From an uncultured Lentisphaerota bacterium (GTDB lineage: Bacteria > Verrucomicrobiota > Lentisphaeria > Oligosphaerales > CAITYL01), in the NCBI GenBank assembly GCA_903896595.1, contig CAITYL010000169.1, forward strand, positions 1 to 32,569: a stretch of DNA of 32,569 nucleotides, in the 5' to 3' direction. Each line of letters opens with the position of its first letter. Positions within the stretch are counted from its first letter, which is position 1. The position numbers were made by a program, and so were the translations under genes. Positions 1-18,621 of the stretch are shown here, piece after piece. Under the pieces are notes generated by a model. The model ran no database searches, was not told where the DNA came from, and saw only the letters and a list, made by a program, of their open reading frames with translations.

Positions 1-387
1 GCCCCGCCGTCCGTCCGCCCACTCCACCAAAAACGTGACAACCTCCCGGCTGTCGTGTGCTTCCGCACGCCCTACCGTCACCAACACGGCTTTATGTCAC
101 CGCCGACCGGTCAAGCACAAATCAAATTCGTCAGTGCTGGGCAGCCATGAAGGTCATGGCGAAACATCACTGGATGCGGTAGATTAATTATCTGGGGTGC
201 ATTGATCGGCCGGCGCGACTTCCCAGGTCATGGCGAAAGCGAGCGGGCCGGGGTGATGGCACCGATCCTGCTTTTTGTCTTGCACTTAGGGAAGAGTTGC
301 GGCGAGCGCCATAACAGCAAAAGAGAATTGCCGCCAATGGCGAACTCCGCGACCCGCCAATTTGAACCAACGGGAAGGTTTTGTGTC
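1..387. other. leading intergenic region and 5' leader of the M6 protease
   Basis: No gene is convincing here. The protease frame stays open back to a TTG at 202, but that extension lacks a ribosome site and would bury the signal peptide, so it is treated as untranslated leader. A 14-base string (AGGTCATGGCGAAA) occurs near 151 and again near 225, the only repeat noticed. No known riboswitch fold was recognised. Confidence 0.4.
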
Positions 388-3300
388 ATGAATGGGAAAC
401 GCGCGCCGTGGTTCCGTGTTTCGGTTGCCCTGTTGCTGGCCCTCGTCGGCGGGACGGTGTCAGGCTGGGCGGCGCCCACCGGCCCCCAAGGGGTACCCGT
501 GGAAGCGCAACAGCCGGACGGGACCGTGCTCACGATTCGCGGCTACGGGGACGAGTTCTATCACCGTTACGAGACCACCGACGGCTATACGGTGATCCGG
601 GATCAACAGACCAACACCTGGCATTACGCCCAGGCCAGCACGGACGGAAGCACGCTGCTGTCGAGCGGGCTTGTCGTGGGCCGTGACCACCCGGCCGCCG
701 CCGGCCTGACCAAGCACGCGAATCGTTCGCGTGAAGCCATTGGCCGCATCATTGCGGACCGCCATGCCCGTTTCGTCGTCCCCGCGAACTGGGAACGGCG
801 GCGGCTGGAGCGTCAGATCACCCGGCTTCATGGCCTGGGCAGCCAGACCGCGGCGAGCGCCCTCGTCCAAACCTACAACGCACGCTACCAGGCCATGGGC
901 TACCGTGCCAGCCTGCCAGCCAGCGGCGCCCCCCGGCTCACCAGCGCCACCGAGCCCAATTACGCGCCGCCACCCGCCATGGCCCGAACCAGCGTGGTGG
1001 CGCTCTGCATTCTCGTCAAATTTCCCGACCAGGCGGCCCCCGCGTTCGACCAAGCGGAAATGGATGATCTCGTCAACCAGGAAGATTACACGGATGCCGC
1101 CGGAAACTCCGGATCGGTCCGGGACTATTTCTATGCCCAGTCGTTTGGCAAACTGACCTACACGGCCGTGGTCACGAATTACATCACCGCCGACCATAAC
1201 CGCAGCCACTACGCCAATCAGGCGGACTGTGATGGCGGGCTGGAACTGATCCGGGAATGTATCGGCAAGGTCTCGGGAGTGGATCTGACCCCGCTGACCA
1301 AAACCAGTGGCACCGCAGTGGCGGTCTACCTGCTCTATGCGGGGGCGACCGGCTACGACGGGCTGTGGCCCCATCAGTCCACCCTTTACCCCACGCCATC
1401 ACTTTCGGACGGCACCAAGGTGGCGGACTATATGGTGTCCAGCATTGGCACGACGCCCGTCATCGGCACCATCTGCCACGAATCCGGGCACATGGTTTTG
1501 GGCTGTGCGGATTATTACGATTACGGCGACGACGGCGTCGCCTCCGCCGGCGTGGGCGAGCACTGCCTCATGGGCTCGGGCAATCATCTGAACGACGGCA
1601 AGACACCGGCCCCCCTCAACGCCTATCTGAAATATAAGCTTGGTTTTGCCGCCGCAGTCCCCCTCCCCGCCTCCGGCAGCGTCTCGGTGGGCGCGAACGA
1701 CCAACAGTTTTACCGGGTGGTCAAGCCCGGCAAGGCCGCCGAATATTTCATCCTGGAAAACAAGTGCAAGTCCGCCAGTCCATGGAACGCCGGCATGGTG
1801 GACGAGGGACTGGCCGTCTGGCATGTGGACGAGGCCGTGACGACGGACAATGAATACCAGCAAATGACCATTGACAAGCACTATGAATTGTCCTTGGAAC
1901 AGGCGGACGGCCAGTTTGACCTTGAAACCAAAACCGATACGAACCGGGGTGACGACACCGACTATTACGACGGCGCCACCGGGCGCACCGCCATCTCATC
2001 GTCCGCCACCACTCCCAGCTCCAAATGGTGGGACGGCGGCAGTTCGGGTTCCCTGGCCATCAGCAATGTCAGCACCCCCGGCGCCACCGTCAGGTTTATC
2101 ATCAGCCAGGCGGTGACCCTTGACCCCGAGGGCGGCACAGTGAGTCCAACCGGCATCGGCGTGGTCTTTAACACCCCCTACGGAACCTTGCCGACTCCCA
2201 ACCGCAATGGGTACAGCTTTGACGGCTGGTGGACCGGCGACAACGGCACCGGCACCCAGGTGACCGCAGGCACGATGGTCACCACCGCCGCCAACCATAC
2301 GCTCTACGCCAAATGGACCCCCAATAGCTACACGGTAACCTTTGATCCCGAAAACGGCACGGTCACCCCGGAAACCATGGGCGTGACCTTCGGCGCCGCC
2401 TACGGCACCCTCCCAACCCCCGTCCGCACCGGCTACACCTTTGCCGGCTGGTGGACCAGCGACAACGGCACCGGCAACCGGGTGACCGCCACCACACTCG
2501 TCGCCGCCACCGCCGACCTTAGACTTTATGCCAGATGGACAGTGAGCACCTATACCGTCACCTTTGACAGCGAGGGCGGCCGGATGAGCACCACCAGCAA
2601 GAGCGTGGCGTTTGGCGGCACCTACGGGGCGTTGCCCACCCCCGCCCGGACCGGCTATGTCTTTGCCGGTTGGTGGACCGGCGACAACGGCACCGACACC
2701 CAGGTGCTCTCAACCACGGTCGTCACCATCCCCGCCAACCATGCGCTCTACGCCAAATGGATGGTGAACAGTTACACCGTGACCTTTTCCCCGGGGGGCG
2801 GCACGGTCTCTCCAACCAGCCAAGGCGTCACCTTTGATGCGCCCTACGGCCCCCTGCCGGCCCCCATCCGCACCGACTACACCTTTGACGGCTGGTGGAC
2901 CGGCACCTCGGTGACCGAGAACACGGTCGTGTCCATCGCCGCCAGTCACACCCTTTATGCCAAATGGGTGCGAAAAGGCAGTCAGACGATCACCTTCCCC
3001 GCCCTGCCCGCGAAAACGTATGGGAACGCGGACTTCGCACCGGGCGCCACGGCATCTTCCACCCTGGCCGTAAGCTACGCCAGCAACAACCCCGCCGTGG
3101 CAACGGTGGTTGCGGGCAATCTCCACCTGGTCGGTGCCGGTACGGCCACCATCACGGCGTCACAGCCAGGCGATGGCACGTGGACCGCCGCCACCGCCGT
3201 GGCAAAAACCTTGACCGTGGCCAAGAAAACCCTGACCGTCACCGCTGAAAATAAAAACCGCACCACCAACGAACCCACTCCGGCGTTCTCCATCGTCTAT

Positions 3301-4485
3301 GCAGGGTGGGTTAATGGCGATCAGGAGGCAGTGCTGGCCACCCCGCCCACGGCAACCTGTTCCGCCACCGCGGCGAGCCAGGCCGGAACCTACCCCATCA
3401 CGGTCGGCGGCGGCAGTGATGCCAATTATGCCTTCTCTTATGTGGCGGGGACGTTGACCATCACGGCGGTCTATCCAGCCGTAACCACCACGGTGCCGAC
3501 CGCCATCGGCACCACCACCGCGACGGCCGGGGGCACGGTAACGAGCGATGGCGGGACGCCGGTAACGGCCCGCGGCGTCTGCTGGAGCACCGCCACCACC
3601 CCAACGCTGGCCGATGCCAGGACCAGCAACGGCAACGGCATGGGCGCGTTCACCAGCATGCTCGGCAGGTTGCGGGCAAGCACGACCTATTATGTCCGGG
3701 CATATGCCACCAACGGCGCCGGAACGGCCTATGGCGAGCCGCGAGCCTTCACAACGCCCGCGGCCAGCGGCGCGGATTTCGTGGTGACGACCATCACCCT
3801 CCTGCCGGGACTGCCGGCCGTGAGCGGCAAGCTCACCGTCTCCGTCACCGTGCTGAACCAGGGCCTGCTGAGCGGCAAGGCGGGCAGCCTGTACGTGTGG
3901 ACCAACAAACCGGAGACGGCCGCCATGGGCGAACCCGCCGACAAATCCGCGGCCCTCAGCACCTTGAAACCGGGCCTAAGCAAGACGGTGAAGATGACGG
4001 TGACCGCGCCGGCAAGCCTGGGCACCTTCACCCTGCGCGCCTTTATTGACGCCAAAAACGCCGCCAAAGAAGACGATGAGTACAACAATCAAAGCAGCTA
4101 TGCGTACAGCACCGGCCTGCCGGACTTTGCGGTCCAGGCCGTCCAGATCAGTCCGGAAACCCCGGCCGCCGGCCAGGCGTTCACCGCCTATGTGACCGTG
4201 GTCAACTCGGGCGCGGTCGCCGGCAATGCGGGTTCTCTCGATCTTTGGGCGGACACCACCGCCCTGCCCACCCCCCCTGTGCCGGCCAGCACAATCAAGG
4301 GCAACAAGTACAAGACGGTCGGCACCCTCCTGCCTGGCCAGGAAAAAACCATCACCGTGACCGGCCTGAAGGCGCCGGTTGGCCAACCGGCGCCCGGCCT
4401 GGGCGTGCTCATCGACAGCCGCGCCAAAACGCGGGAGATGGACGAAACCAACAACGCCTTCGAGTTCGATTACAACTGCCAATGA
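388..4485 (+). CDS. secreted M6-family metalloprotease with InlB-type and CARDB repeats
   Basis: Predicted zinc endopeptidase exported from the cell, 1365 residues. The chosen ATG follows AAGG by about 9 nt and starts a clear signal peptide (basic MNGKR, hydrophobic [10 protein letters not shown], Ala-rich cleavage region). The catalytic motif HESGH lies at residues 364-368, followed by G372 and D375, the likely third ligand, as in M6 (immune inhibitor A-like) proteases. From about 576 to 860 there are four Listeria/Bacteroides (InlB B) repeats, each ending in an LYAKW-like motif with a GWW core. Then come a Big/YGX-like region (about 866-945), an MBG-like domain (946-1028), an FN3-like domain (1029-1128) and two CARDB domains (about 1129-1235 and 1245-1365). 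No C-terminal sorting signal is visible, so it may be free or held by the adhesive repeats. It stands alone, with no operon partner. Function as protease is well supported; substrate is unknown. Confidence 0.9.
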
Positions 4486-13587: not shown

Positions 13588-13648
13588 GTCGTTATCGTGA
13601 TCGTTGTCGTAATCGAATCGACTACGATGGACGACAACGAAAACGATG
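13588..13648. repeat. 9-nt periodic palindrome (TCGTTATCG type)
   Basis: Left arm made of successive nonamers GTCGTTATC, GTGATCGTT, GTCGTAATC; the right arm (13618-13648) is an imperfect inverted copy with ACGACAACG. Non-coding, directly followed by the F-type repeat and the next nonamer array. Confidence 0.6.
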
Positions 13649-13841
13649 CAATCTTCTCCGCCCGAGGCTAGGCGGCTCCCAATGATCCCCGTCGTGGGGG
13701 GGCGTCCTCCACGTCCTCGTTGTCCTCATTGGCGTTATTTGTCCCCAATGTCCCCGCCCCCCCCAGTTCCCGTCCAGCGGCCATTGCCGCCGAGGACAGA
13801 GAGGACGGGGAAAACCGGAGGACATTGAAGACTATGAGGAC
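13634..13841. repeat. repeat F copy 1 plus GTCCTC/GAGGAC nonamer palindrome
   Basis: The first ~65 bp (CCGCCCGAGG...GGCGGCTCCCAATGATCCCCGTC) match 17431-17495. Then GTCCTC starts at 13704, 13713 and 13722, and GTCCCC at 13741 and 13750, all stepping by 9 (one step of 19). The opposite arm has GAGGAC at 13792, 13801, 13818 and 13836 and GAAGAC at 13827. The arms can pair in several registers. Confidence 0.75.
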
Positions 13842-14220: not shown

Positions 14221-15747
14221 ATGCTGACACGACTCAAGGTCTCAGGTTTCAAAAACCTGGTGGACGTGGACGTACGATTCGGCCCCTTCACCTGCATTGC
14301 GGGCGGTAACGGCGTCGGCAAATCCAACCTCTTTGACGCCATTTGCTTTCTCAGTGCGCTGGCCTCAAAAACCTTGAACGAGGCCGCCATGGCCGTACGC
14401 GAAGAAGGTGCCAGCGCCTCTGACATCCGGCGCCTGTTTCACCAAGTGGATGGAGAGTATGATAAAGCGATGCGCTTTGAGGCGGAAATGCTGGTTCCGT
14501 CCAAGGCGGTGGATGACTTTGGCCAGGAAGCCGCTGCCACCACCACACTGCTTTGTTACACCTTGGAACTGGAGTATGCCGCCGAACCGGATAGCCGCCA
14601 ACCGGCTCGCCTAACGATTCTGAAAGAGAAACTCACCTATCTGCCACGCTCTAACGCGAATGCCAGTCTTCTTTTTCCTCACAAACCAGGAACCTGGCGG
14701 AAAAGCGTTTTGACGGGAAAGCACCGAACCGCTGATTTCATCTCGTCCAAAGTCGATGGGAATGGCACCCGCGTGGTCATGCTTCACCAGGATGGCGGCG
14801 GCCATGGGCAGCCCTTGTCACGTCCGGCACAAAATCTGCCGAGAACCATTTTGTCCGGTGCCAGCGCGGCGGAATGCCCAACCGTGCTTTGCGCCAAACG
14901 GGAAATGGAGTCTTGGCGCCGGCTGCAACTGGAACCCTCCGCCCTGCGCCAATACGATGAGATTAACGCGCCCCATCATTTGGACATGCATGGAGGCCAC
15001 CTGCCGGCCACGCTCTTTTATTTAGCCGGCGGTAACCAACCGGATGCCGTACGTTCCTCCGCCATTTACAGTGGAGTGGCAAACCGCTTGGGTGACCTGA
15101 TTGATGATGTGCGGAGCGTGTCGATCGACAAGGATGACAAACGCGAAAACCTCACCCTCATGGTCTCCGGCCGGGACGGCACCCTCCTTCCGGCCCGATC
15201 CTTGTCAGACGGCACGCTTCGTTTCTTGGCCCTTGCCGTCATGGACTTGGACACTCAGTCACCAGGCGTGATTTGCCTGGAGGAACCGGAGAACGGCATC
15301 CACCCAGAACGCATCCCGGCCATGCTACAGCTACTGCAAAATATTGCCAGCGATACGGACGAAGCCGTTGCCGAAGACAATCCTCTTCGGCAGGTAATCA
15401 TTAACACTCATTCGCCAATCGTCGTTGCGGAAGTCGACGATGATTCAATCTTGGTGGCTTATCCGCAGGAAGTCTGTCAAGGGGAGAAACGATTTCATGC
15501 GGTGGCCTTTGGTTGTCTGCCCGACACGTGGCGGACAAAAGCGGACCCGCCCGCCCCGATAGTGGCCAAAGGAGAGTTGTTGGCCTACCTAAACCCCATC
15601 AACCAGCGAAAGAAGGACTCCCAATCTCCCATGCTGGAAGTTGCGGACGGCATACAGGCGAAAAAATCCAAACCTCGCAACCGCGTGGCTGATCGTAATG
15701 ACCTGCAAATTCTCTTGCCCGGCTTGGAGGGCTATGATCGCCTATGA
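14221..15747 (+). CDS. AAA_21 (OLD/RecF-like) ABC-class ATPase
   Basis: 508-residue SMC/ABC-type ATPase. Walker A GGNGVGKSN at 28-36 follows the FKNL motif typical of RecF/OLD proteins; the signature is LSDGTLRFLAL; Walker B is ICLEEPENGIHP; the H-loop is INTHSP. The middle (about 80-310) is a family-specific insertion in place of a long coiled coil. AAGGGG six bases before the ATG supports the start. The stop overlaps the next gene's start as ATGA, so both are one operon with coupled translation. With the TOPRIM-like partner it resembles split OLD systems and PARIS (AriA/AriB), in which the ATPase senses and the TOPRIM protein cuts. The GC content appears lower than in neighbouring genes, suggesting transfer. 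Defence function is inferred. Confidence 0.88.
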   Translation: MLTRLKVSGFKNLVDVDVRFGPFTCIAGGNGVGKSNLFDAICFLSALASKTLNEAAMAVREEGASASDIRRLFHQVDGEYDKAMRFEAEMLVPSKAVDDFGQEAAATTTLLCYTLELEYAAEPDSRQPARLTILKEKLTYLPRSNANASLLFPHKPGTWRKSVLTGKHRTADFISSKVDGNGTRVVMLHQDGGGHGQPLSRPAQNLPRTILSGASAAECPTVLCAKREMESWRRLQLEPSALRQYDEINAPHHLDMHGGHLPATLFYLAGGNQPDAVRSSAIYSGVANRLGDLIDDVRSVSIDKDDKRENLTLMVSGRDGTLLPARSLSDGTLRFLALAVMDLDTQSPGVICLEEPENGIHPERIPAMLQLLQNIASDTDEAVAEDNPLRQVIINTHSPIVVAEVDDDSILVAYPQEVCQGEKRFHAVAFGCLPDTWRTKADPPAPIVAKGELLAYLNPINQRKKDSQSPMLEVADGIQAKKSKPRNRVADRNDLQILLPGLEGYDRL

Positions 15748-16499
15748 GTCGGTGGTTAAACTTGAATTTCACCTTGGTCTCGGAGGGGTCTTCAGACTGT
15801 GTTCTCGTACCCATTTTGGCATGGGCACTGCGTGCGTTACCCCAAATTGGCGCCGTAAATGGCAAATGGGCAGATCTGCACCAGCTCCGCACTCCGCCAC
15901 AAAATTTGGCAGAAAAAATACTCAAGGCCGCCGAACTTTATCCATGTGATCTACTATTCATCCACCGGGACGCAGATAGGCAACCTCCTGACATGCGGTA
16001 TCGCGAGATCGATGCGGCCGTGGATGAAGCATGGGCACAACAGTCACGACTGCCCGCCGTCTGTGTCGTTCCCGTCCGGATGTCCGAGGCTTGGTTATTG
16101 TTTGATGAACCCGCAATTCGGCAAGCCGCCAGCAATCCCCGCGGTAAGATACCGTTAACCATCCTGACCGGCGCGCGGGTAGAACAGTGTCCCGATCCCA
16201 AGGATCTTCTGCTCCAAAATCTGCGTGACGCCAGCGAGACCAGTGGCCGCCGCCTCAAGCAATTCCGCCAGCAGGAAACGCAAGCGGTTCACCGCGTCGT
16301 CGCCAATATCCGCGACTTTTCCCCGCTGCGCCAAATTCCAGCCTTTGCCCGTTTGGAACACGACTTGAAAGAGTGCGTGGAAAGAGAATTCGTCCATATG
16401 CACAACGTCAGTGGCCACCAATCACCGGAGCCGAAGGCGGCTGGTGGTTCGGTGCGCCACGTTGCGGGGATTCAATCATCTTCAAAAGTTCAGCCTTGA
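15744..16499 (+). CDS. DUF4276-like TOPRIM-type protein, partner of the ATPase
   Basis: 251 residues. VSEGSSD gives the acidic Glu (E14) and FIHRDAD the DxD pair (about 76 and 78) expected of a TOPRIM metal site; RMSEAWLLFDE and the basic GRRLKQF region fit the DUF4276 group. Proteins of this type are found next to AAA_21 ATPases, and TOPRIM partners in OLD and PARIS systems are nucleases. It starts inside the ATPase stop (ATGA); TTGGAGG lies upstream. The last ~30 residues, after FVHMHN, read antisense through the small minus-strand gene at 16408-16649 and look unlike the rest, so the original end may be near 16408. Nuclease activity is inferred, not shown. Confidence 0.82.
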   Translation: MSRWLNLNFTLVSEGSSDCVLVPILAWALRALPQIGAVNGKWADLHQLRTPPQNLAEKILKAAELYPCDLLFIHRDADRQPPDMRYREIDAAVDEAWAQQSRLPAVCVVPVRMSEAWLLFDEPAIRQAASNPRGKIPLTILTGARVEQCPDPKDLLLQNLRDASETSGRRLKQFRQQETQAVHRVVANIRDFSPLRQIPAFARLEHDLKECVEREFVHMHNVSGHQSPEPKAAGGSVRHVAGIQSSSKVQP

Positions 16500-17297: not shown

Positions 17298-17430
17298 TTT
17301 CTCACCTCGTTGCTGCCGCCAATATATCACCGGTGCCGGTGGCGCCTCAAAAAGGTTTTCTTGGCGCGCTTGGCCAGAGAATATTCCGGGGGTGGGCACC
17401 GACCCAAAAGCGGCAAAGGAATTGCCGCAA

Positions 17431-17556
17431 TCCGAAAACGGTGTAACCTTGTCCACCCGAGGCCGGGCGGCTCCCAATGATCCCCGTCACGAGGCGCGTC
17501 CTCCCCGTCCTCGTTGTCCTCCAAGTCTTCCTGGTCCTCGCCGTCCTCATTTCGAG
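17431..17556. repeat. repeat F copy 2 and GTCCTC nonamer array
   Basis: The first ~65 bp match 13634-13698 (CCCGAGGC.GGGCGGCTCCC then AATGATCCCCGTC). GTCCTC or GTCTTC then begins at 17498, 17507, 17516, 17525, 17534 and 17543, five exact 9-nt steps. The last unit overlaps the stop codon of the racemase-like gene (17547-17549). There is no second arm here. Confidence 0.75.
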
Positions 17557-18486: not shown

Positions 18487-18594
18487 GAGGACTTTTGGGG
18501 GACGTTGAGGACGAAGATGACCTTGAGGACAATGGGATTCCCGCCGCCAGCTGTCCTCGTTGTCCTCCACGTCTTCCCAGTCCTCTGTGTCCTC
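18487..18594. repeat. GAGGAC/GTCCTC nonamer palindrome upstream of the racemase-like gene
   Basis: Left arm: GGGGAC, GAGGAC, GATGAC and GAGGAC begin at 18498, 18507, 18516 and 18525 (a further GAGGAC at 18487). Right arm: GTCCTC or GTCTTC begins at 18553, 18562, 18571, 18580 and 18589. All steps but one are exactly 9 nt, and the arms are inverted relative to each other. It lies between the amt-glnK terminator and the racemase-like start. Confidence 0.75.
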
Positions 18595-18621
18595 ATTCTT
18601 GCGAAGCTGGCGAGCTATCAC

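Follow-up and report, generated by a model that had tools for sequence, protein, structure and literature searches.

A HEC-01-type gene pair encoding an OLD/PtuA-like ATPase and a predicted TOPRIM-like nuclease with a coupled Glu/Asp exchange in its putative metal site

The PARIS system combines an ABC ATPase with the TOPRIM tRNase AriB, which the ATPase activates on sensing a phage protein (PMC12409363). In E. coli, the members of two-gene AAA and TOPRIM pairs work as antitoxin and toxin, respectively, and the authors of that study suggest abortive infection as the role of such AAA pairs (PMC10440598). In OLD nucleases, metal A is bound by E377, D431, and D433, and metal B by D381, S478, and E480 (PMC7049728). 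HEC stands for Hma-embedded candidate, and according to an archaeal survey, antiviral activity has been shown for several HECs, including HEC-06 (PMC12988326). HEC-01 is listed as a predicted system in one genome paper; in the open-access literature, we found neither an experimental test of HEC-01 nor a description of its mechanism.

The gene pair that we analyzed lies in a stretch of 32,569 nucleotides (the window) from a single contig (G000:C169) of an uncultured Lentisphaerota bacterium, whose genome comprises 5.8 Mb in 404 contigs. Gene A (14221-15747, forward strand) encodes an OLD/PtuA-type ABC ATPase (AAA_21) of 508 aa, and gene B (15744-16499, forward strand) encodes a predicted TOPRIM-like two-metal nuclease of the DUF4276 superfamily of 251 aa. 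Both open reading frames are complete and the start of gene B overlaps the stop of gene A in an ATGA, so that the sequence of the window agrees with the two frames, coordinates, and overlap given by the first-pass annotation. Protein A matches the PADLOC model HEC-01A (PDLC04184) at 1e-96 (residues 1-408 against positions 1-397 of 464) and protein B matches HEC-01B (PDLC04210) at 1.3e-24 (residues 7-213 against 4-210 of 217), and we therefore regard the pair as belonging to a candidate system that is already catalogued, and not as a new system. The genes also have a lower GC content than their surroundings, as had been noted at first pass: GC is 0.57 for A and 0.56 for B, and GC at third codon positions (GC3) is 0.63 and 0.58, respectively, compared to 0.79-0.90 in most neighbors.

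The assignment of A as an OLD/PtuA-like ABC ATPase with intact motifs is strongly supported. Its AAA_21 identity, already proposed from the letters of the window, holds in Pfam with a match of 2.8e-26, over the family cut-off. When we searched with the AlphaFold2 model of A (pLDDT 92.0), the best Foldseek match was PtuA (1.1e-11), the ATPase of Septu and retron Ec78, and the other top structural matches were SMC heads, Rad50, and the OLD protein of T. scotoductus. The Walker, signature, and H-loop motifs that the first reading had called intact are indeed so, with ATP-site residues that are invariant or nearly invariant in an alignment of 61-70 relatives. Specifically, this conservation is seen for G28, N30, G33, K34, and S35 of the Walker A motif (GGNGVGKS, residues 28-35; 14302-14325, forward strand), which are invariant, as are L328, S329, D330, G331, and F335 of the ABC signature (LSDGTLRF, residues 328-335; 15202-15225, forward strand) and E354-N358 and P362 of the Walker B and D-loop region (GVICLEEPENGIHP, residues 349-362; 15265-15306, forward strand). 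In the H-loop (INTHSP, residues 394-399; 15400-15417, forward strand), N395-P399 are nearly invariant.

Protein B belongs to a diverged branch of the DUF4276 superfamily, a term that we did not find in the open-access literature. The HEC-01B model PDLC04210 matches all 80 relatives of B. The description of B as DUF4276-like stands in part: B itself scores 18.9 bits against DUF4276 (PF14103), under the curated cut-off of 30.2 (E=0.0019), whereas 65 of the 80 relatives match DUF4276 (E<0.01; best 1.4e-7), and a profile-profile comparison (hhalign) of the B family with true DUF4276 proteins gave E=2.2e-5 and a probability of 76%. This comparison pairs HRD of B with an Asp of DUF4276 and MSEAWLLFD with HEFEALL, and it places the DPK region near APSKR. 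The C-terminal approximately 35 residues of B (16380-16499) match nothing in the relatives and are modeled at low confidence, and they may have been added recently as an extension.

The proposed TOPRIM identity of B found support in its acids and in the order of its strands, but not in fold searches. In the AlphaFold2 model of B (pLDDT 90.5), the order of strands and acids is as in TOPRIM, with E14 following the strand at residues 5-12 and D76-x-D78 following the strand at 70-74, and these acids are conserved in the relatives. A Foldseek search of the model against PDB and BFVD returned no match of any kind below 1e-3, no TOPRIM in the top 50, and no listed match to the AriB structure, and the B profile found only a chance match among PDB sequences. 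Because Foldseek gave no TOPRIM match, we infer the TOPRIM fold of B from its acid motif and from the strand order in the model. These search results are what one would expect if B were some other metal enzyme on a Rossmann-like fold and not a nuclease, as would be the lack of a link to RloB in hhalign. We consider this very unlikely, given that the strands and acids follow the TOPRIM order, that the acids are spaced as the metal ligands of OLD are, and that the family of the ATPase partner usually carries TOPRIM or HNH nucleases.

The conserved residues of B fall into four motifs, all on the forward strand, and can be compared with the ligands of OLD. In motif 1 (EGSSD, residues 14-18; 15783-15797), E14 is a predicted ligand of metal A and D18 of metal B; G15 is invariant, D18 is found in 78 of 80 relatives, and position 14 is D or E in all 80. 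In motif 2 (HRDAD, residues 74-78; 15963-15977), D76 and D78 are predicted metal A ligands, and H74 and D76 are invariant. Motif 3 (MSEAWLLFD, residues 113-121; 16080-16106) contains M113, E115, and W117, invariant in the 80 relatives, with E115 as a candidate ligand of metal B, and motif 4 (DPK, residues 151-153; 16194-16202) contains P152 and K153, again invariant in the 80, with K153 as a candidate catalytic lysine. The E...DxD motif reported at first pass is thus present, with acids at these positions in 79 of 80 relatives. Residues E14, D18, D76, D78, and E115 of B parallel E377, D381, D431, D433, and E480 of OLD: the E-x3-D spacing of motif 1 is identical to that of E377/D381 in T. scotoductus OLD, and the D-x-D spacing of D76/D78 is identical to that of D431/D433. 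K153 can be compared with K562/R487 of OLD. In this comparison, the acids of B match those with which OLD nucleases build their two-metal TOPRIM site, and E115 and K153 would serve in metal B binding and catalysis, respectively.

We observed that positions 14 and 78 of B change together. The window copy carries E14 and D78, whereas most relatives carry D14 and E78: the combination is D/E in 69 of the 80 relatives, E/D in 10 (the window included), and D/Q in one, and neither E/E nor D/D occurs, such that covariation is complete. On a tree built without columns 14 and 78, parsimony counts seven changes at each of the two positions. Five independent pairs lie on well-supported branches and all agree (sign test, p=0.0625); with all 80 rows, three pairs are supported, also in agreement. 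Since the small number of supported pairs limits the attainable p-values, we regard the swap as strong pattern evidence, short of formal proof. The simplest reading of the pattern is that side chains 14 and 78 share one metal and that their combined length is kept. If so, E14D or D78E alone would be harmful, and the double change would be tolerated; the paired swap thereby makes the prediction that B is an enzyme testable. The only copy with Q78 is that of a Nostoc metagenome-assembled genome (L015:3865-6061), in which gene A is split into two frames; this may be a decaying pair or an assembly error.

To place the pair among its relatives, we searched genome contigs. The single B sequence found none, and an alignment of four B sequences found 275, of which we kept 80, from Cyanobacteria, Chloroflexota, Planctomycetota, Acidobacteria, Verrucomicrobia, Proteobacteria, and other phyla. 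Together with three loci from other searches, this yielded 83 loci. Gene A adjoins gene B in all 83, which excludes chance, and precedes it in 82; the remaining locus (L019:9627-11846) is the lone convergent one, with the two genes still adjacent. An ATGA overlap is possible in 43 of the 83 loci, and no A-B fusion occurs among them. The flanking genes lie on the same strand as the unit in 62% and 54% of cases, which is near random, and this lack of a strong strand preference argues that there is no constant third gene and that the unit consists of two genes. The unit is thus strictly two-gene and self-contained across phyla. Such tight overlap and obligate pairing would also suit a toxin-antitoxin pair kept by addiction, in which B is a toxic nuclease, A neutralizes it, and defence is incidental or absent, and AAA-neutralized TOPRIM toxins have been shown experimentally in related architectures (PMC10440598). 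We consider this explanation quite unlikely: as a complete ABC ATPase whose motifs are all nearly invariant, A goes beyond the needs of simple neutralization, and the authors of the same work themselves suggest abortive infection for such AAA pairs.

The unit was likely spread by horizontal transfer, as had been suggested at first pass and as its patchy distribution, its tree, and its foreign GC3 now support. Within the phylum of the window, we found full-length copies in only 4 of 388 genomes, and in the tree the window copy groups with proteobacterial copies, apart from the Kiritimatiellota copy (L068). Mobile defence modules are often found in phage, viral, and plasmid collections. We found no relative of the unit among IMG/VR viral contigs or INPHARED phages and one among PLSDB plasmids.

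The genomic surroundings of the unit did not show all of the features that the first-pass annotation had expected of a transferred defence module. The scanned genes flanking the unit in the window encode an MFS transporter, an Asp/Glu racemase, an ammonium transporter, and a GH31 hydrolase, and the supposed flanking gene remnants were not recovered: four short flanking frames gave no convincing Pfam match. Copies of a dispersed repeat, consisting of a GTCCTC-rich nonamer run after a conserved block of approximately 56 bases, flank the unit (13638-13739, 17425-17551, and 18544-18597); we rejected them as element borders, as the repeat family is genome-wide (at least 43 matches). The MFS and racemase flanks are not conserved in two genomes of the same family, so that no usable empty site was available. 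Elsewhere in the window (202-4485) lies the gene of a protein of 1427 aa that combines List_Bact repeats, MBG, CARDB, and a weak match to M6 peptidase; this large protein is probably located on the cell surface or secreted.

Across the surveyed loci, PADLOC matches were no more common among 248 near genes (the two nearest per side) than among 139 genes more than 6 kb away, a comparison based on a simple ORF caller, family tallies instead of gene counts, and fragmented contigs, which could miss a modest enrichment. The near genes include one HmaB and one BrxL, which is no excess over the distant genes, and in Pfam the neighbors are mainly housekeeping genes. In this sample, the expected enrichment in defence islands was therefore absent. 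This branch of HEC-01, at least, is not concentrated in defence islands, and the database label is consequently not a sufficient reason to assume a role in defence. The neighborhood result keeps alive the main rival to a defence function, namely that the unit is a chromosomal housekeeping or genome-maintenance ATPase-nuclease, sometimes transferred, with no primary anti-phage role. A precedent is archaeal Cran1, an ATPase-nuclease of the OLD family that is essential to the cell cycle and has shown no sign of acting against viruses (PMC12796447). A housekeeping role would fit the mostly housekeeping neighbors without excess of defence genes, the lack of relatives in phage or viral contigs, and the resemblance in flanking ORF layout among several Nostoc loci, which suggests stable inheritance there. 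It fits less well with a unit that is rare and patchy in its phylum, whose gene tree crosses phyla and whose GC3 in the window is foreign, and that is kin, by PADLOC, to a candidate discovered through its embedding in defence systems. On balance, we consider a housekeeping role unlikely.

We propose instead that the unit is a HEC-01-type module, probably for abortive-infection defence, in which ATPase A gates the two-metal nuclease B. The earlier description of a candidate anti-phage two-gene unit thus holds for its parts, pairing, and transfer, and PADLOC names the pair HEC-01, but it finds no echo in an enrichment of defence genes nearby. The defence role is suggested mainly by family kinship, and the nuclease activity of B and its control by A by analogy: with PARIS and the AAA and TOPRIM toxin pairs as analogues, A most likely gates B and infection would be the trigger. 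Under this proposal, A would multimerize and hold B inactive; a signal of infection would alter either the nucleotide state of A or its assembly, and A would then release or activate B, much as in PARIS or AbiL; and B would cut nucleic acid (tRNA or DNA), stopping phage growth and usually also the host cell. More broadly, and only tentatively, the HEC-01B family may represent a TOPRIM branch marked by repeated Glu/Asp exchange between the first acid and the last DxD acid, both predicted ligands of metal A, with D...DxE in most members as opposed to the canonical E...DxD, and HEC-01 a widespread two-gene defence system outside defence islands. By naming a metal site in B and the ATPase that partners it, the analysis assigns both halves of HEC-01 concrete roles that can be tested.

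Comparison with known systems places the unit closest to HEC-01 itself. PARIS likewise has two genes, an ABC ATPase followed by a TOPRIM-type effector, and A matches AriA at 2.5e-27; however, the fit of A to HEC-01A is much closer (1e-96), Pfam shows no match of B to DUF4435, the family of the PARIS partner, and we found no DUF4435 gene in the genome. AbiL (AbiLi and AbiLii, RloB family) is also a two-gene ATPase and TOPRIM-like effector system, A matches AbiLi at 3.4e-16, and the EGxxTE, DxD, and FExW motifs of RloB resemble those of B. We tried and rejected B as an RloB protein of the AbiL/RloAB type, as hhalign of the B family against RloB gave a probability of 4.9% over 12 columns; DUF4276 and RloB share a weak profile link. 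The same genome encodes two RloB-family genes (G000:C402:1626-2183 and G000:C21:46511-47101; L125 and L139), each of which adjoins an ORF with a weak match to the profile of gene A, and these are therefore likely AbiL-like pairs. OLD nucleases (classes 1-3, including GajA and Retron-Eco8) share with the unit the kinship of the ABC ATPase and the predicted layout of metal ligands, but they carry ATPase and nuclease in one chain, whereas A and B are separate genes. Septu provides the best fold match for A in PtuA; its partner PtuB is an HNH nuclease, which B is not. Canonical DUF4276 and AAA_21 pairs resemble the unit in that an AAA_21 gene lies upstream in 27 of 30 canonical DUF4276 loci from related genomes, but they differ in the size of the ATPase (approximately 370-400 aa compared to 508 aa) and in the DUF4276 motif, often VDxYG in place of the HRDx[D/E] of B. 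Canonical DUF4276 genes (L086-L115) occur in 19 of 60 genomes of the order and class of the window, with up to six copies in one, nearly always preceded by an AAA_21 gene. With HEC-01, finally, we found no defining difference: both proteins match across almost the whole conserved region, and A and B are adjacent. The window copy has E14/D78 where most relatives have D14/E78, and defence genes are not enriched nearby; it is not embedded in an Hma or other defence locus, which is how HEC-01 was discovered and not a rule of membership. What the analysis adds is the assignment of an active site in which two acids swap together, a two-gene structure that holds strictly across phyla, and the finding that islands are not enriched for the unit; the unit itself is an ordinary, well-formed member of the known candidate family HEC-01.
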